From Luteimonas galliterrae (lineage in GTDB: Bacteria > Pseudomonadota > Gammaproteobacteria > Xanthomonadales > Xanthomonadaceae): 64,000 nucleotides of DNA. Positions 13,593 to 20,837 of the stretch are shown here, one piece after another. The stretch is from positions 1,488,001 to 1,552,000 of the forward strand of contig NZ_JAMBEP010000001.1 in the NCBI RefSeq assembly GCF_023374055.1, in the 5' to 3' direction. How positions within the stretch are numbered: the stretch's first letter is position 1; the number at the start of each line of letters is the position of its first letter. A model generated the notes under the pieces. The model did no database searches and was not told the origin of the DNA. It worked only from the letters and a program-made list of their open reading frames with translations. The position numbers and the translations under genes were made by a program.

Positions 13593-14624
13593 CTACTTGC
13601 CCGCTTTGCCTGGCATGGGCAGGGCATCGTCCGAGTAAATGGCCACGTGCGGCACGCCGTCGGCGCCGATCCAGCCCCGGAACATCCCCTCGGTATTGAA
13701 CGGAAAGGCCGCGCTGCCGTCCGCGCCCAGTACGATCGCACCGCCGTCGCCGCCCATCTTGGGTATGGCCTGGTCGATGACCGCCTCGCCGGCCTGGGCC
13801 GGGGTCTCCTTCAGGTAGGCCACCCGGGCGCAAATGTCGTGGGCAGCGGCCGTGCGGATATAGAACTCGCCCCAGCCGGTGCCGGAGACGGCGCAGCTGG
13901 CGTTGGCGTAGGTGCCGGCACCGATGATCGGGGAATCGCCGACCCGGCCGTAACGCTTGTTGGTCATGCCGCCGGTGGAGGTGCCGGCAGCCAGATGGCC
14001 CTGGGCGTCCAGGGCCGCCGCGCCGACGGTGCCGAAGTGTTTGGCGGTCTCCAGGTCGGCATTCGCCTGGCCGGCGGCCTCCTCTTTAAGCGCCCGCTGG
14101 AGCTGCTGCCAGCGTTTTTCGGTGCGGAAGTAGGACGGATCGACCAGCTCGATGCCCTGCTCCTTGGCGAAACTCTCGGCGCCGTCGCCGACCATCATCA
14201 CGTGCTTGGAGCGCTCCATCACGGCCCGCGCCAGCAGGATCGGGTTCTTGACCCGGTGCACCCCGGCCACGGCACCGGCGTTCAGGGTGGCGCCGTCCAT
14301 CAGCGATGCATCCAGCTCGTTCTTGCCGTCGTGGTTGAAGACCGCACCCTTGCCGGCATTGAAATTCGGGTCGTCCTCCAGGGTCGTGATCGCTGCGATC
14401 ACCGCCTCCAGGGCGGGCTTGCCGGCCGCCAGCGCAGCATGGCCGCGGCGCAAGGCCAGCTCCAGTGCGGCCCGGGCTGCTTTTTCGTCATCCGGGGTCA
14501 TGCCCTTGCGCTCCACGCCGGCGCCGCCGTGGATGATCAACAGGGGTTTGGGCGCATCGGCGGCGTAGGCCATCGGGGCCGAACATAGCAGCAGGACGAG
14601 GCAGGAACGCAGGATTCGGATCAT
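13593..14624 (-). CDS. iaaA: Isoaspartyl peptidase / type III L-asparaginase, exported
   Basis: This Ntn-hydrolase cleaves isoaspartyl (beta-aspartyl) dipeptides and is made as a precursor that cuts itself before a catalytic threonine. In the 343-residue protein the motif HFGTVGAAALD places Thr199 as the nucleophile, and HGGAGV near residue 32 and GTSTGGM near 214 are the other family signatures. The first 21 residues form a signal peptide ending AYA-AD, so it acts in the periplasm or outside. ATG 14624 has GGAG ten bases upstream and is preferred over a start 39 bases earlier. It lies beside cyanophycinase on the same strand, which suggests that beta-Asp-Arg dipeptides from cyanophycin are a substrate (inference). 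Confidence 0.92.
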   Translation of the reverse strand: MIRILRSCLVLLLCSAPMAYAADAPKPLLIIHGGAGVERKGMTPDDEKAARAALELALRRGHAALAAGKPALEAVIAAITTLEDDPNFNAGKGAVFNHDGKNELDASLMDGATLNAGAVAGVHRVKNPILLARAVMERSKHVMMVGDGAESFAKEQGIELVDPSYFRTEKRWQQLQRALKEEAAGQANADLETAKHFGTVGAAALDAQGHLAAGTSTGGMTNKRYGRVGDSPIIGAGTYANASCAVSGTGWGEFYIRTAAAHDICARVAYLKETPAQAGEAVIDQAIPKMGGDGGAIVLGADGSAAFPFNTEGMFRGWIGADGVPHVAIYSDDALPMPGKAGK

Positions 14625-14675
14625 TTTCGAGCTCCGGAAGGCGGTCGGTAACGGGGGCTGCAACGAACCCTTGCA

Positions 14676-14813
14676 CCGTCATCCCAGCGAAAGCTGGGAC
14701 CCATGTTGATTTTGATTTGGGCTTATTAAGCATGAAAAGCAAAATGGGTCCCAGCTTTCGCTGGGATGACGGAACGAGTAAGTCACTGGATTCCCGCCTT
14801 CGCGGGAATGACG
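14676..14813. repeat. Three GTCATCCCAGC/GCTGGGATGAC-type palindromes between iaaA and cyanophycinase
   Basis: The units GTCATCCCAGCGAAAGCTGG, its inverted partner and a TTCCCGCCTTCGCGGGAATG variant fill the gap. Each unit is a short palindrome. The same family recurs at 31174-31335, in every copy of the large composite repeat and at 63734-63801. Confidence 0.8.
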
Positions 14814-14835
14814 GCTTATAAAGCTAGATACATGG

Positions 14836-15855
14836 TCAGTGGGTAGCTACGGCAACCGAGAGCCGCCCGCCCATCACGTCATAAACTTTTGAAAATGCTG
14901 GTTTTTCTACCTGGAAATCCGGCAGCCGAAGCAAGCTCTCAGTGCCGAGGCCGACCACCGGCACCGCACGGAACGTCAGCGGCCCCGCACCGAACTCATC
15001 GGCCTGCCGCTGCGGCCTCACCAGCCAGGCATAGCCGCCATTGCCAGTGAATACCCGCCCCGTGCCGGCATCGTCGATGCACAGCGCGGTGTACTCGTCC
15101 ACGCCTATGCCGGCCAGGTCGGACCTGCCCTGCTCCTTCGACAGCCGGGCGACGAACGCGATCAACCGGCCCAACCGCTCGCGCTTGCCGAAGTGGCTGT
15201 CGGTGATCACGTTCTCCAGGTAAGGCATGTGCAGGAAATCGCCGACCAGGGTGACTTCCGAACTCATCGGATTTTTCAGTGCGGTTTCCGACACCACGCT
15301 GCCGCCGTCCATCGCGCCGTACGACCAGGCCCCCAGGATGGCCAGCCCGGCGCTGGTGCCGCCGATCGGCTTGCCGGCGCGGACGTGCTCGTCGAGCAGC
15401 TTGTTGAGCGGCGTGCCCTTCCAATAATTCACGTAGTTGGACTGGTCGCCGCCGGCCAGGAAGATGCCGTCCGCGTTGCGCACGATCTCCAGCACTTTCG
15501 GGTCGCTGGCGGCGCGGCGGTGGCTGAAGACCAGCGTCTGCGCCGCGGTGATGCCGCCGATGTCCTTGAAGAATTCGTCCTGCGCCTCGGTCGAGCCCGA
15601 GGCGCGCAGGATCACGATGCGGCCGTGGCCGGCGCGCGCGATCATCCAGCGGAAAGCGTCGTAGGGCCAATCGCCGCCGCCGACCAGCATCATGCCGGCC
15701 TGGGTCGCGCCGGGCCTGGGCGCCTGCACGTCGCCGATCTCGAAATAGCGGTAGCCCTTGCCGCCGGCCTTGGGCGCAGCCAGTGCGGCTGCGCAGCAGA
15801 ACAGCGCCAGGCACAGCACGATGCGGACGACCGATGTATGCCAACGCAAACCCAT
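14836..15855 (-). CDS. Cyanophycinase (S51 peptidase), exported
   Basis: Cyanophycinase hydrolyses the storage polymer multi-L-arginyl-poly-L-aspartate to beta-Asp-Arg dipeptides. The 339-residue protein has a signal peptide (residues 1-27, cleavage about ALAA-PKAG), the GGDQSN motif at 135-140 and the nucleophile elbow GGTSAG with Ser168, as in the S51 family. ATG 15855 has GGGGGAG eight bases upstream and is chosen over an earlier start. Export indicates use of external polymer rather than an internal store, like the secreted enzymes of cyanophycin-degrading bacteria. It is followed by iaaA on the same strand and is divergent from the ECF sigma gene at 15999 across 143 bp. Confidence 0.9.
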   Translation of the reverse strand: MGLRWHTSVVRIVLCLALFCCAAALAAPKAGGKGYRYFEIGDVQAPRPGATQAGMMLVGGGDWPYDAFRWMIARAGHGRIVILRASGSTEAQDEFFKDIGGITAAQTLVFSHRRAASDPKVLEIVRNADGIFLAGGDQSNYVNYWKGTPLNKLLDEHVRAGKPIGGTSAGLAILGAWSYGAMDGGSVVSETALKNPMSSEVTLVGDFLHMPYLENVITDSHFGKRERLGRLIAFVARLSKEQGRSDLAGIGVDEYTALCIDDAGTGRVFTGNGGYAWLVRPQRQADEFGAGPLTFRAVPVVGLGTESLLRLPDFQVEKPAFSKVYDVMGGRLSVAVATH

Positions 15856-15998
15856 GCCTGTTTCTCCCCCGCGCGTTTTCGCACGGCCCATGGAGCCTGA
15901 GACGAACGTAAGCGCGCCATCCCCCATCCCCGCGCGCGTTGCGGGAATTTATTTTCGCGGCGGCTTCTTACCCGGCCGCGATCGGGTAAGGTCGCGCC

Positions 15999-16586
15999 AT
16001 GAACGAGTCGCTCGACGCCTGGTTCGCCCGCGAAATCCTCGTCCACGAGGATTCGCTGGTGCTTTATCTGCGGCGCTGCTGGCCGCAGCGCGACGATATC
16101 CACGATCTGCGCCAGGAAGTTTACGTGCGCATCTACGAAGCGGCCGGCAAGGCGCGGCCGGCGATGCCCAAGTCGTTCCTGTTCGCCACCGCGCGGCACC
16201 TGATGACCGACCGGCTGCGGCGCGGTCGGGTGGTGTCGATCGAGACAGTGGGTGATTTCGAGTCGATGAACGTCTTGATAGACGAGATCTCGCCGGAACG
16301 CCGCCTGGGCGCGCGGCAGGTGCTCAGGCAACTGGCCGAAGCCTTCGACCGGCTTCCGGACCGGTGCCGGGAGGTGGTCTGGCTTCGGCGCGTGGAAGAA
16401 CTGCCGCAAAAAGAAGTCGCAGCGCGCCTGGGCATTACAGAGAAGACTGTGGAGAAACACGTCGCAAAAGGCGTTCGCATGATCGCCGAGCATTTTTACG
16501 GCGGGGACTCGGCGCGAGCCGGTCGTTCGCGACAGGCAGCGGACGCCGAACGGGAAACGGACCATGAGCAGCAGCAGGCAGATTGA
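15999..16586 (+). CDS. FecI-type ECF sigma factor
   Basis: This 195-residue protein is an ECF sigma factor of the iron-starvation (FecI) group. Region 2 is at about residues 15-80 (DDIHDLRQEVYVRIYEAAG) and region 4 at about 110-165 (LPDRCREVVWLRRVEELPQKEVAARLGITEKTVEKHV). These factors are held inactive by a FecR protein until a TonB receptor binds its ligand. The stop codon lies 23 bp inside the following fecR-like gene, so the two are coupled. It is divergent from cyanophycinase. Which promoters it serves cannot be read from the sequence. Confidence 0.9.
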   Translation: MNESLDAWFAREILVHEDSLVLYLRRCWPQRDDIHDLRQEVYVRIYEAAGKARPAMPKSFLFATARHLMTDRLRRGRVVSIETVGDFESMNVLIDEISPERRLGARQVLRQLAEAFDRLPDRCREVVWLRRVEELPQKEVAARLGITEKTVEKHVAKGVRMIAEHFYGGDSARAGRSRQAADAERETDHEQQQAD

Positions 16587-17625
16587 ACGCACCGCCGCGG
16601 CCTGGCTGGCGCAGCGCGACGGCGGACGTTGGTCCGAGCGCGACCAGGCGCGTCTGGAGGCTTGGCTGTCGGCTTCGACCGCGCACCGCGTCGCCTTCCT
16701 GCGATTGGAAAGCGCATGGCAGCAGAGCGACCGGCTGAAAGCGCTCGGCGCGGGGTTGCCGGCCGGCACGCTGCCTGAGCGCGGACAGTGGGCGCCATCG
16801 CCGTTCCTGGGCTCACGCGAACCGGCGAGTGAGACGACGCGCGCCGCATCGGCACTCTCTGCGTCTCGCACGCCACGACGAAGCGGGCGGATGGGGCGTT
16901 ATTTCGGTGCGGCTGCCGCATTGGTGCTCGCCGTTTCGTCGGTAGGGCTCTGGCATCACCTCACCGCAGTCGAGCAGACCTCCTATCAATCCGGACTCGG
17001 CGAACTGCGCCTGATACCGCTGGCCGACGGTTCGCGCGCCACGCTGAGCAGCGACAGCCGCATCCTGGTATCGATGTCGCGCAGCGAGCGCCGCATCGAT
17101 CTGCAGCAAGGCGAAGCGTTCTTCGATGTCGCCAAAGATCCCGGCCGGCCGTTCGTAGTCGCCGCAGGCGCACGCCGCGCCGTCGCCGTCGGTACGCATT
17201 ACGCCGTTCGTCGCGACGCGGCGAACCTGCGCGTGGTGGTCACCGAAGGCACGGTGCGTTTGGAAACCGATTCCGCCCCGGACCAACATCCGCAACCCAC
17301 CACCCTGCTGCCTGCCGGCAGCGTGGCGCTGGCCAGCCGCAACGGCGTGCTGGTGCGTTCGGGTTCGGTGGAGGAGGCCGAGCAGCAGCTCAATTGGCGC
17401 AGCGGCTTCCTGGCTTTCCACGACACTCCGCTGGCCGACGCCGCGGCCGAATTCAACCGCTACAACGCCCGCAAGATCGTGATCGGCGACGCCGAGACCG
17501 CAGCGATGCGGGTGGGCGGCAACTTCCGCTGGTCGAACGTGGATGTGTTCGTGCGGCTCCTGGAGCAGGGTTTCCCGGTCCGGGCCGAATACCGGGACGA
17601 CCGCATCGTCTTGCGCAGTCAGTGA
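16564..17625 (+). CDS. FecR-type anti-sigma factor / sensor
   Basis: This is the inner-membrane partner of the preceding sigma factor (353 residues). It has an N-terminal cytoplasmic DUF4880 domain (residues about 8-55, AAAWLAQRDGGRWSERDQ), one transmembrane helix at about 112-130, a periplasmic FecR domain (about 140-250) and a C-terminal DUF4974-like domain (about 280-350) that would contact the receptor's STN domain. It overlaps the sigma gene by 23 bp and is followed 92 bp later by the TonB receptor, the standard order of a cell-surface signalling cassette. Confidence 0.9.
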   Translation: MSSSRQIERTAAAWLAQRDGGRWSERDQARLEAWLSASTAHRVAFLRLESAWQQSDRLKALGAGLPAGTLPERGQWAPSPFLGSREPASETTRAASALSASRTPRRSGRMGRYFGAAAALVLAVSSVGLWHHLTAVEQTSYQSGLGELRLIPLADGSRATLSSDSRILVSMSRSERRIDLQQGEAFFDVAKDPGRPFVVAAGARRAVAVGTHYAVRRDAANLRVVVTEGTVRLETDSAPDQHPQPTTLLPAGSVALASRNGVLVRSGSVEEAEQQLNWRSGFLAFHDTPLADAAAEFNRYNARKIVIGDAETAAMRVGGNFRWSNVDVFVRLLEQGFPVRAEYRDDRIVLRSQ

Positions 17626-17717
17626 CGCCGATCGCATTCGGGCGGGGGATTTTCCGGACTCGTTCGTCCCCACAGTCATACGGCGCCGTTCCGTGCGCCG
17701 ATGGGGAGGGGAACCCG

Positions 17718-20700
17718 ATGGTGCGTTCGTTCCGTGTCTTGCTGCTCGCATTGGCCTGTTCGGCCGCCCTGGCCGCGCAGGCCCAGACCGGCGGTCCCGC
17801 GCGGATCGACATCCCTCCCGGCGATCTGGTGACTGCGCTGGATTCGCTGGCCAAGCAATCGGGCGCGCAATTCGTCTATCGCGCCGATCAACTGAAAGGC
17901 CTGCGCACGCAGGGCGTGCAGGGCGCGCGCTCGTCCGACGAAGCGCTCGACCGCTTGTTGCGCGGCAGCGGTTATGCCGCGCGGCGCGATGCGTCGGGCG
18001 CGGTGGTGATCGTGAAAAGCGAAGCCGCCGCGACGCCGCGCCCCGCTACCGCCGCGCCCGCCGCTTCCGGCGGCGCTTCGGCCGATGCCGCCGCGCAGCA
18101 GACGACTACGCTGGAAACGGTGCAAGTGACCGGCTCGCGCATTCCGCGCGCGCAAGTCGAAGGGCCGGCGCCGGTGACCGTCGTCACTTCCGCGGACATC
18201 CAGGCCAGCGGATTCACCAGCGTTCCCGACGTGCTGCGGGCGATGACCCAGAACGGCGGCGAGACCCAGAGCCAGCAATCCTTCAGCGGCGGCGATTTTT
18301 CGCCAGGCGCGGAGCAGGTCGACCTGCGCGGCCTGGGTCCCAACCATACGCTGGTCTTGGTCAACGGCCGCCGCATCGCCGACTTTCCGATGCCGTTCAA
18401 GGGCCGCAGCAACTTCACCGACATCTCCAACATTCCGCTGGGCATGGTCGACCGCATCGAGGTGCTGACCGGCAGCGCGTCGGCGGTCTACGGTTCGGAT
18501 GCGATTTCCGGCGTCGTGAACTTCATCCTCAAGGATTACGCCGACGGCACCACCGTCGACTTGCGCTATGGCGACACCGAACGCGGGGGCGGCGAATCGA
18601 TCAAGCTGAGCCTGTCGTCGGGCTTTTCGCGCGGCGCTTTCAACGCGGTGTACGGCGTCGAATTGCTCGACCAGAAACCGCTGTGGGCGTACGAGCGCAG
18701 TCTGCAGGATTCGACGAAAGACTCGCCCGATCCGGGTGCGGCATCGCGCCGCGCATTCCTGCAGACGGCGTGGGATCCGGACGACGGCGACAACGAATAC
18801 TACGTCGACCCCGGCCAAGCCACCTGCGATGCGCTGGCCTATCTCAACAAGGGATCGACCTACCGGGCCAGCCGGCCGAACTGGGGACGCTACGACCCCA
18901 TCGCCGACGACTATCCGCCCGGCCGCTTCTGCGGCAGCGACGAATCCATCGGCTACGGGACGATCATCAGCAAGCGCCGCGGCGCCAACGCTTACGGCTC
19001 GATGAGCTACGCCTTCGACGGCGACACCGAGTGGTTCGCCGAAGTGCAGCTGGGCTACCACGAAGTCGAACTGTTCACCGACGTGCGCAGTTGGAGCTAC
19101 ATGGCCCCCGACGGCAACGAGGAAGGCTATTTCTTCAACCAGGCCACGAACCGCGTCGAATACTGGCAGCGCCAGTTTTCGCCCGAGGAAATGGGCGGCC
19201 TGGACCAAGGCATGATCCGCAACAAGCAAAAGACGTTCGGCGTCGTCACCGGTTTCAAGGGCGTATTCGGCGAGGACTGGGACTGGGAAGCGGCTTTCAG
19301 CCATTCGCAATACAAATCCGAGATCGGCTGGCCGCAGATCGTCGCGGCGGCGGCCAACAATTTGTTTCTAGGCCCGCAACTGGGCGTGGACCCCACCTAC
19401 GAGCTGCCGATCTTCAACGCCGATCCGAACCGCCTGTACACGCCGCTCACCCGCGCCGAGTACGACTCGATCGCCGACTACACCACCTATCACCCGAGGT
19501 CGCGCACCGACACGCTGTCGTTCACGGTGACCAACACCAGCCTGTTCGAGATGCCGGCCGGGCCTGCGGGCTTTGCCGGCGTGGTGGAGATCGGCAACCA
19601 GGCCTACGACCTCAATCCGGATCCGCGCGCGCTGGAGTACTACTACTACAGTTGGAAGGACTCCAACGGCAAAGGCAGTCGCGACCGCTGGGCCGCGGCC
19701 GGAGAGGTGCGCATGCCACTGTTCGAGACGCTGAACCTCAGCACCGCTGCGCGCTACGACCGATACCGCTACTCCGGTCGCGAAGTCGGCAAGTTCACCT
19801 ACAGCGCCGGCTTGGAATGGCGGCCGGTGGATTCGTTGCTGGTGCGCGGTTCCTACGGCACCGCATTCCGCGCCGCCGACCTGCACTATCTCTACGCCGG
19901 CATCGGCAACGATGAAACCTCCGGCGTCGACTATTACCGTTGCCGTACCGAGGAACCGGGCGAAACCTTCGAGGATTGCAGTTGGGGCGACGAAGGCTTG
20001 ATCCGTACCCGCTCCGGCAATCGCTACCTCGAACCCGAGACCAGCACTTCTTGGACCGCGGGCCTGGTGTGGTCGCCGAACGACAATTTCGACTTGTCGG
20101 TGGACTATTTCGACATCGACATGCGCAAGCAAGTCCAGGACATGAGCAACGACCCGATCCTACGGGACGAAGCGGACTGTCGGATCGGTTCGCGCGTGGA
20201 CGGTACGCCGGTGGACGTGAATTCGCCGACCTGCCAGGATGCGATTTCGCGCGTGACCCGCATCGACGGCCGGCTGTACGGCATTTACGTCAACCCGATC
20301 AACATCGCCCGCGAAAGCACCAACGGCATCGACTTCAGCACGCATTTCCGGCTGCCGACGCGGATCGGCGATTTCCGCTTCACCGGCAACTACACCTGGG
20401 TGCGCGAGCACACGTTCCAGCAGTTCGACGGCGACGTAATCGAAGACGAATTCGCGGTCAACAGCGGCTTCGACATCCCGCGCACCAAGGCCAGCGCCAC
20501 GCTGTCGTGGGAGAAGAACGCCTGGATCGCGAGCCTGCACGGCGAACGCCTGGGTCGCCTGCCCAATTCCGATTCCTACGACGGCGTCTTCGATCCCGAG
20601 GACCCGGAGGCCGGCAGCCCCTACATCGCCGCCACGTACCGCTACAACGCGACTTTGCAATACCGGTTCACTGACCACATGCGGCTGTCGCTAGCGGTGG

Positions 20701-20837
20701 ACAACCTGTTCGACAAGATGCCGCCGCGGGACAAGACCTATACCGCGTATCCCTATTACGACGTGTCGTGGTTCGACACGCTGGGGCGCAGCTATTACCT
20801 GCAGTTCACCTACAAGTTCGGCGGAAAGGCGCTCTAA
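17718..20837 (+). CDS. TonB-dependent receptor with STN signalling domain
   Basis: This outer-membrane transporter has 1039 residues from ATG 17718, which is preceded by GGGGAGGGGAA. A signal peptide (to about residue 22) is followed by an STN secretin/TonB short N-terminal domain (about 28-92), an Ala/Pro-rich linker, a TonB-box-like segment TLETVQVTGSRIPRAQVEG, the plug domain (about 130-250) and a barrel ending in a terminal aromatic strand YYLQFTYKFGGKAL. The STN domain shows that it also signals through the adjacent FecR/FecI pair. The ligand is unknown. Divergent cyanophycinase and isoaspartyl peptidase genes suggest an arginine/aspartate dipeptide or polymer fragment (inference). Confidence 0.9.
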   Translation: MVRSFRVLLLALACSAALAAQAQTGGPARIDIPPGDLVTALDSLAKQSGAQFVYRADQLKGLRTQGVQGARSSDEALDRLLRGSGYAARRDASGAVVIVKSEAAATPRPATAAPAASGGASADAAAQQTTTLETVQVTGSRIPRAQVEGPAPVTVVTSADIQASGFTSVPDVLRAMTQNGGETQSQQSFSGGDFSPGAEQVDLRGLGPNHTLVLVNGRRIADFPMPFKGRSNFTDISNIPLGMVDRIEVLTGSASAVYGSDAISGVVNFILKDYADGTTVDLRYGDTERGGGESIKLSLSSGFSRGAFNAVYGVELLDQKPLWAYERSLQDSTKDSPDPGAASRRAFLQTAWDPDDGDNEYYVDPGQATCDALAYLNKGSTYRASRPNWGRYDPIADDYPPGRFCGSDESIGYGTIISKRRGANAYGSMSYAFDGDTEWFAEVQLGYHEVELFTDVRSWSYMAPDGNEEGYFFNQATNRVEYWQRQFSPEEMGGLDQGMIRNKQKTFGVVTGFKGVFGEDWDWEAAFSHSQYKSEIGWPQIVAAAANNLFLGPQLGVDPTYELPIFNADPNRLYTPLTRAEYDSIADYTTYHPRSRTDTLSFTVTNTSLFEMPAGPAGFAGVVEIGNQAYDLNPDPRALEYYYYSWKDSNGKGSRDRWAAAGEVRMPLFETLNLSTAARYDRYRYSGREVGKFTYSAGLEWRPVDSLLVRGSYGTAFRAADLHYLYAGIGNDETSGVDYYRCRTEEPGETFEDCSWGDEGLIRTRSGNRYLEPETSTSWTAGLVWSPNDNFDLSVDYFDIDMRKQVQDMSNDPILRDEADCRIGSRVDGTPVDVNSPTCQDAISRVTRIDGRLYGIYVNPINIARESTNGIDFSTHFRLPTRIGDFRFTGNYTWVREHTFQQFDGDVIEDEFAVNSGFDIPRTKASATLSWEKNAWIASLHGERLGRLPNSDSYDGVFDPEDPEAGSPYIAATYRYNATLQYRFTDHMRLSLAVDNLFDKMPPRDKTYTAYPYYDVSWFDTLGRSYYLQFTYKFGGKAL

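Follow-up and report, generated by a model that had tools for sequence, protein, structure and literature searches.

Cyanophycin serves as a nitrogen store in cyanobacteria and other bacteria, and to our knowledge the way in which bacteria find and eat the extracellular polymer is poorly understood. A locus of Luteimonas galliterrae raises the question of whether a receptor at the cell surface could sense such a material and command the enzymes that digest it. The locus lies in a stretch of 64,000 nucleotides (contig NZ_JAMBEP010000001.1, positions 1,488,001 to 1,552,000; hereafter the window) of the 3.6 Mb host genome. Here the genes for two exported peptidases, a cyanophycinase-like protein of family S51 and the isoaspartyl peptidase IaaA, diverge from genes for an extracytoplasmic function (ECF) sigma factor, a FecR-type regulator and a TonB-dependent receptor. 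We favour, with a probability of roughly 0.6, the reading that these genes form a self-inducing module that scavenges a beta-aspartyl peptide from outside the cell; cyanophycin or its oligomers would be the most likely such peptide. An earlier note on this DNA had proposed that the locus senses, imports and digests external cyanophycin or its dipeptides. Conserved linkage and a shared promoter support the joint action. Cyanophycin is the probable ligand, and other beta-aspartyl peptides would fit as well. The elements of the locus are as follows, with start codons refined from the sequence (ATG at 14624 for IaaA, 15855 for S51, 15999 for sigma and 17718 for the receptor).

13593..14624, minus strand: iaaA, exported isoaspartyl peptidase / L-asparaginase (Ntn hydrolase, catalytic Thr199; PF01112, 378 bits)
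14836..15855, minus strand: cphB/cphE-like gene, exported S51 cyanophycinase-like peptidase, 339 aa (PF03575)
15901..15923, minus strand: ECF-type promoter motif GGGAT-N10-CGTTCGTC, towards the S51 gene (exact match; conserved in relatives)
15999..16586, plus strand: ECF sigma factor (Sigma70_r2 and r4)
16564..17625, plus strand: FecR-type anti-sigma/regulator (FecR 65.9 bits, DUF4880)
17646..17668, plus strand: ECF-type promoter motif GGGAT-N10-CGTTCGTC, towards the TonB receptor (exact match)
17718..20837, plus strand: TonB-dependent receptor with leader, STN, plug and beta-barrel (STN 36.2, Plug 80.3, barrel 134.7 bits)
17868..18017, plus strand: STN signalling domain of the receptor (Pfam STN, residues 52-101 of the 17715-20837 translation)

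All five genes stand where the earlier note had placed them and their Pfam domains agree with its assignments. The arms diverge across the 143 bp that it gave between the S51 and sigma start codons, and open reading frames and Pfam matches bear out a complete surface-signalling cassette in one cluster. The FecR gene overlaps the sigma gene. The sigma protein scores 80.2 bits with the sigma70-ECF model (cut-off 42.9), the STN domain passes its cut-off of 28.4 bits, and the NCBIfam FecI and FecR equivalog models match the window proteins below their cut-offs.

The first part of the answer comes from linkage, the test that the earlier note had set for itself. A search of 247 genomes of the family (Lysobacteraceae) with the S51 protein gave matches in 89 genomes at 96 places; the closest named species are Luteimonas cucumeris (88 % identity) and L. 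gilva (86 %). Orthologue-like proteins (at least 45 % identity) occur in 84 genomes, about one third of the family genomes sampled, and 12 places hold more distant ones (35-41 %). We examined the surroundings of 60 of the 96 places, comprising 51 orthologue-like loci, each from a different genome and none from the host, and 9 distant ones. The linkage is conserved: all 51 orthologous loci have IaaA beside S51 in the same orientation, and in 50 of them the receptor gene diverges from the S51 gene, the contig of the remaining locus (L049) ending first. Taking as a close receptor one of at least 800 bits, a value that falls in a gap of the scores between 812 and 705, we found S51 orthologue and close receptor together in 82 of the 247 genomes, the S51 orthologue only in 2 and the receptor only in 4 (Fisher's p ~1e-57 for co-occurrence, kinship ignored). 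Incomplete genomes (75-85 %) make up 2 of the 4 receptor-only cases and 1 of the 2 S51-only cases; G194 retains IaaA and the receptor and lacks just the S51 gene between them, and G230 lacks both enzymes.

The more distant S51 loci were excluded from the 51: at the 9 of 12 such places whose surroundings were examined (L096-L104), none has IaaA and only one has a receptor match (L101, 26 %). The flanking genes of the orthologous loci differ between lineages, so the gene set stays together in different places. Among flanking genes clustered within 4.5 kb, no other neighbour family recurs in more than 13 of the 51 loci (the commonest are ribosomal and NusG-type genes of the tuf neighbourhood; rarer clusters were partly identified). 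No transporter recurs with the module among these clusters, and single genomes may have one nearby.

The second part of the answer concerns the promoter. When the intergenic regions of relatives were compared, a motif of 23 bases, GGGAT-N10-CGTTCGTC, was found upstream of the receptor gene and, in the opposite orientation, upstream of the S51 gene. Both window copies are exact and have the same 10-base spacing. At two mismatches the window holds 6 matches against 2.8 expected, a number attained by 8 of 100 shuffles, so that weight is given to the exact window copies only. Across the host genome there are 3 exact matches, including the 2 at this locus, and 5 within one mismatch compared to 2 for the pattern read backwards. 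The third exact match (G000:C1:1152440-1152462) has no sensible target gene and is followed by a tRNA-like stretch; it was taken as chance.

Loci were scanned for the motif with spacings of 8-13 allowed. Of the 36 loci that carry sigma and FecR, 35 have an S51-side copy with 2 mismatches or fewer and one has a copy with 3; on the receptor side, 34 of 35 copies show no more than 1 mismatch. The sites in these loci have spacings of 9-11. The 15 sigma-less loci have no motif with 0 or 1 mismatch on either side, one at 2 mismatches (spacing 12) and two at 3. Because the motif words had been picked from these same regions, we used a non-circular test with a matrix built from 33 receptor-side sites alone. 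On the strand reading towards S51, 27 of 37 S51-side regions exceed the 99th percentile of 740 shuffles with this matrix, and 19 of them score higher than any shuffle. Above that level we found none of 37 regions towards sigma, none of 174 housekeeping or iaaA upstream regions and none of the 15 sigma-less regions. In 12 genomes of our own choice, 10 of them with the sigma-type module, the form GGGAW-N10-CGTTCGTC occurs exactly 24 times, 16 of these at the two arms, while the backward pattern occurs twice. The motif is presumably used by this sigma factor, and it resembles mapped ECF promoters of Sinorhizobium meliloti such as rpoE4 (GGAAT and CTCGCTCGTC), as given in the available part of PMC6180224, which deals with sigma factors other than FecI-type regulators of polymer use.

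The promoter would offer a handle for finding regulon members. An exported S9 (prolyl oligopeptidase family) gene at L048:1872-4147, convergent with the receptor, has an exact GGGAW-form motif 67 bp upstream; this combination is seen in one genome only (represented twice, L048/L006). On the sigma side, by eye, a TAAGGT hexamer lies at 15987-15992, 6 bases short of the sigma ATG, and many relatives have TAATGT, TATGGT and similar words, as if the sigma mRNA were leaderless.

The third part of the answer is that the signalling elements come and go together. Sigma and FecR are present in 36 of the 51 loci and absent in 15. Among sigma-bearing loci the receptor start lies on the contig in 35, and each of these receptors has a leader followed by an STN region, and the receptors of all 15 sigma-less loci have the leader directly before the plug, with no STN; in a Pfam sample the STN domain was found in 3 of 3 receptors with sigma and 0 of 5 without. 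That sigma, FecR, STN and the promoter pair travel together is the strongest sign that the signalling parts serve the receptor and both arms, and on the strength of these genome comparisons the sigma/FecR/STN cassette very probably controls both. Mapped on a tree built from 55 S51 proteins, the presence of sigma switches 3 times, with at least 2 of the switches on starred branches, and the fusion of the two enzyme genes 2 times; eight long end branches (above all L143 and L144) leave the exact counts uncertain, and gain and loss are indistinguishable on this tree. In three further loci (L147, L148 and L149) a sigma-FecR-STN receptor cassette of this family stands without the S51 and IaaA genes, and other ligands may use the same signalling family.

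The search was also taken beyond the family. Of 398 genomes of the phylum, 11 gave a match, and 4 of these 11 belong to other families. In G397, which shares the order but not the family, all five genes of the cassette occur together and the motif precedes both arms (exact and one mismatch). G592 and G619, of the same phylum, have a divergent receptor with S51 and IaaA, fused in G619, and no adjoining sigma; G369 has a distant S51 gene only. Two Novosphingobium plasmids (Alphaproteobacteria) carry the receptor and a fused S51-IaaA gene, with no sigma or FecR match in the stretches examined, and the match to their receptors starts at residue 96 or 122, nearly or entirely beyond the STN domain. 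Receptor, S51 and IaaA are therefore the core, and the adjoining sigma/FecR/STN part is seen in Lysobacterales only. We give even odds to a scenario in which Lysobacterales recruited FecI/FecR-type signalling for an amino-acid polymer. An older, partly plasmid-borne triad would have gained sigma, FecR, STN and two promoters as a unit (or others would have lost them), and cyanophycin peptides would induce their own receptor and the periplasmic enzymes, in many species fused into a single bifunctional cyanophycinase-dipeptidase.

Two side observations belong to these wider searches. In G592 (L143:1-18174) the triad is followed by DUF1611, enolase-superfamily and amidohydrolase genes, gene types known from D-amino-acid metabolism. 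On a Priestia megaterium plasmid (L178) a 31%-identical relative, annotated as cyanophycinase, stands beside an aspartate ammonia-lyase gene.

FecI/FecR/FecA-type cassettes are classically iron systems. The cassette could therefore be an ordinary iron or heme uptake system that stands by chance beside two peptidase genes, and the closest solved receptors by sequence are indeed colicin I, vitamin B12 and siderophore receptors. These match mainly over the plug, so the ligand cannot be read from them; ferripyoverdine receptors match the window receptor also over its N-terminal part, and a structure model of the receptor (mean pLDDT 46.4) was not used. Chance is hard to reconcile with a receptor present in 82 of 84 S51-module genomes, an S51 gene present in 82 of 86 receptor genomes, a promoter common to both arms, and a linkage that persists without sigma/FecR and in another class. 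Nor is there an iron signature: a Fur-box scan of both intergenic regions gave best scores of 10 and 8 of 19, within those of shuffles, and no siderophore or heme receptor model passes its cut-off on the window receptor. We consider an iron or heme role very unlikely.

What the module digests has to be read from its enzymes. The S51 protein scores 40.7 bits with Peptidase_S51 (PF03575, cut-off 23.9), which places it in the S51 fold, and its sole PDB matches by sequence are 3en0, 7uqv and 7uqw. A fold search with its structure model (mean pLDDT 70.5) puts 3en0, 7uqw and 7uqv at the top (E 4e-14, for 3en0, to 2e-12), followed by an actinobacterial peptidase (5e-10) and dipeptidases E (from 2e-7 and weaker). 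Catalytic residues Ser171/His224/Glu251 have been proposed for the exported cyanophycinase CphE, and Gln101, Asp172, Gln173, Arg178, Arg180 and Arg183 are critical in CphB, where CphE has Thr for Gln173 (PMC3235067, in its available part). The corresponding Ser168, His221 and Glu254 are each invariant in 52 of 52 S51 sequences, and so are the pocket residues Gln138, Asp219, Arg225, Arg227 and Arg230 (equivalent to CphB Gln101/Asp172/Arg178/Arg180/Arg183). The position of CphB Gln173 holds Thr in 36 and Ser in 16 of the 52, with Ser in the window, so that at this position the protein is CphE-like rather than CphB-like. Most of these catalytic and pocket residues, including the equivalents of Gln101/Asp172/Arg178/Arg180/Arg183, are also kept in 9 more distant S51 proteins and are thus alone no marker of the module clade. 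From its residues and fold, the S51 protein would release beta-Asp-Arg from cyanophycin.

IaaA is an Asparaginase_2 protein (E. coli enzyme 2zak, E 9e-84) whose catalytic Thr199 and six more motif residues are invariant in 52 of 52 sequences; it does not reach the cut-off of NCBIfam NF007589 (beta-aspartyl-peptidase; 318.6 vs 567). S51 and IaaA form a single open frame in 24 of the 51 orthologous loci, and Pfam confirms both domains in the fusions tested (L074 and L094 from the family, L144 from outside it). Such natural fusions may turn cyanophycin straight into free amino acids.

The signal peptides that the earlier note saw on both peptidases recur in relatives, as judged by a rule-based scan: a hydrophobic stretch precedes the S51 domain in 51 of 51 loci, and unfused IaaA has a hydrophobic leader in 27 of 27. 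A lipobox-like Cys ends the S51 leader in 6 of 7 loci of one well-supported clade (L066, L067, L069, L070, L071 and L077, not L076) and in L058, with L087 ambiguous. In these seven loci the enzyme is probably a lipoprotein, for which cell-anchored or periplasmic action would fit better than free secretion.

Put together, these features suggest the following course for a self-inducing scavenging module. The ligand would bind the TonB receptor, whose STN domain would signal via FecR and activate the ECF sigma factor, as in the FecI/FecR/FecA paradigm; this second step is supported because STN, FecR, sigma and promoter are jointly present or absent. Sigma would then transcribe the receptor gene and the S51-iaaA pair from the GGGAT-N10-CGTTCGTC promoters. 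Oligomers would enter the periplasm via the receptor, where the exported S51 enzyme would free beta-Asp-Arg and the exported IaaA would split it into aspartate and arginine. Both amino acids would be taken in by general amino-acid transporters.

Alternatively, the receptor may sense the peptide with import playing a minor part, digestion taking place at or outside the surface and free amino acids entering by other routes. Known CphE enzymes are extracellular (PMC3235067, available part), the S51 leader is lipoprotein-like in the six loci of one clade and in L058, and whole cyanophycin chains seem oversized for a TonB channel. Yet 15 loci retain the receptor without STN and sigma/FecR, as if import alone were worth keeping, and the Novosphingobium plasmid receptors likewise match only from near or past the end of STN. 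We therefore allow digestion at the surface only a small chance.

It is also conceivable that the peptidases recycle the cell's own cyanophycin reserve and that the receptor is a mere bystander. A cyanophycin synthetase candidate is found in 57 of the 247 family genomes (54 over the cut-off), and 29 of the 57 are among the 84 module genomes. The host, however, has no synthetase over the cut-off (best 76.8 vs 850 bits), three same-genus genomes have none either, and both enzymes carry export leaders while such a reserve is intracellular. Recycling is extremely unlikely on these grounds. Most module genomes (55 of 84) are thus unable to make the polymer, in keeping with scavenging, yet the module is not confined to them. 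In the host, the cyanophycinase-like and isoaspartyl peptidase genes are clustered and cphA1 is absent, as in known scavenging loci.

Several observations weigh against a scavenging module for cyanophycin. The S51 protein misses the cut-off of NCBIfam TIGR02069 (cyanophycinase; 94.6 vs 126.6 bits) and shares just 21-23 % identity with solved cyanophycinases. One of its best structural matches, 7uqv, bears the title pseudo-CphB, and the position of Glu150, the acid of the CphB triad, is Ser in all 52 sequences as it is in 7uqv. Since synthetase candidates occur in 29 of the 84 module genomes, scavenging is not the sole possible role there. Cyanophycin is described as insoluble (PMC7564069, available part) and its chains are large, so that its direct transit through a TonB receptor is uncertain. 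A 211-bp gap in the window separates iaaA from the S51 gene and holds an inverted repeat (by eye, 14677-14771, with 28-base arms, CGTCATCCCAGCGAAAGCTGGGACCCAT), so joint transcription of the pair is not certain there. The receptor-side motif of L072 is poor. Within 10 kb of its triad, G592 also has a distantly related sigma/FecR pair (31-33 % identity) and a second STN-like receptor, and a further sigma stands on the other side, so the absence of signalling there is not certain. Finally, the 60 loci were picked by score and spread rather than at random, and the linkage counts come from related genomes and are hence non-independent.

The enzymatic points among these bear on whether the same architecture and control could serve another substrate. 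The ligand would then be a different isoaspartyl peptide, derived for example from aged proteins, cell walls or modified peptides, with a broad IaaA and an S51 enzyme that trims a related backbone. Family S51 includes Asp-Xaa dipeptidases and peptidases for resistance to microcin C-like antibiotics (PMC9239234, available part), and an IaaA from a cyanophycin cluster is promiscuous (PMC10206079). The missed cyanophycinase cut-off, the genes beside the L143 triad and the exported S9 peptidase with the motif in one genome would suit such a role. On the other side, the CphB-critical pocket residues except Gln173 are kept in 52 of 52 sequences, with Thr (as in CphE) or Ser at 173. The fold search ranks 3en0, 7uqw and 7uqv ahead of the actinobacterial peptidase and the dipeptidases E, and the 31%-identical plasmid relative is annotated as cyanophycinase, beside aspartate ammonia-lyase. 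A substrate other than cyanophycin is a serious possibility, though on balance we find it rather unlikely.

A further host locus of related content was not taken as a second cyanophycin locus. The best paralogue of its receptor (37 %, C1:778654-781191) lies near a second Asparaginase_2 gene, and the surrounding L125 (G000:C1:772000-791000) holds a LacI-type regulator, a sugar transporter, a kinase, this TonB receptor and a glycosylasparaginase-like gene. From translations read by eye, it looks like an N-glycan utilisation locus.

How does the module compare with known systems? As in FecI/FecR/FecA-type signalling, the order is sigma, FecR and STN receptor, with a predicted ECF-type promoter before the receptor; unlike there, the same promoter type also precedes the peptidase arm, and no iron signature was found. 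Lasso-peptide isopeptidase loci with FecI, FecR and a TonB receptor likewise pair a surface-signalling receptor cassette with a peptide-cleaving enzyme, though one of a different family.

The earlier note had considered a link between a TonB receptor of this cassette type and a polymer to be new; a link of TonB receptors with cyanophycinase, however, is not. Tang (2012) listed cyanophycin among the substrates of TonB receptors from one neighbourhood, that of Citromicrobium sp. JLT1363, where, as in the window, the receptor is close to a cyanophycinase gene and cyanophycin was proposed as the substrate (PMC3400609). This is one locus, and the available part of that paper does not mention an isoaspartyl peptidase, sigma, FecR or promoter, all four of which the window has. 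Clusters of cyanophycinase and isoaspartyl dipeptidase in genomes that lack cphA1 have been interpreted as probably serving scavenging, and amino-acid transporters often accompany them (Sharon and Schmeing 2023, PMC10206079, which in its available part cites Ben Hania 2017 for cyanophycin utilization or scavenging loci). The window shares with them the enzyme pair and an adjoining transport function, and adds the TonB receptor with ECF sigma/FecR and a shared promoter and, in relatives, natural fusions.

The S51 protein itself resembles Pseudomonas CphE in its export leader, its Ser/His/Glu, its pocket Gln, Asp and three Arg, and Thr (or Ser) in place of Gln173, with 339 aa against about 420 (compared by published residues; PMC3235067, available part). 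Lysobacter capsici has a cphA-cphB pair, a storage arrangement (PMC4742617, available part). In our searches of open-licence literature we found no report of sigma/FecR control of a cyanophycinase, of a shared promoter or of an S51-IaaA fusion. Taken together, both the parts of the module and the idea behind it are known; what is new is the layer of control, for which the genomes give strong support, and the substrate is likely cyanophycin. As one testable unit the module brings together receptor, sensor, two enzymes and a promoter of 23 bases and, if the reading is right, extends TonB-receptor surface signalling from metals to a peptide polymer.

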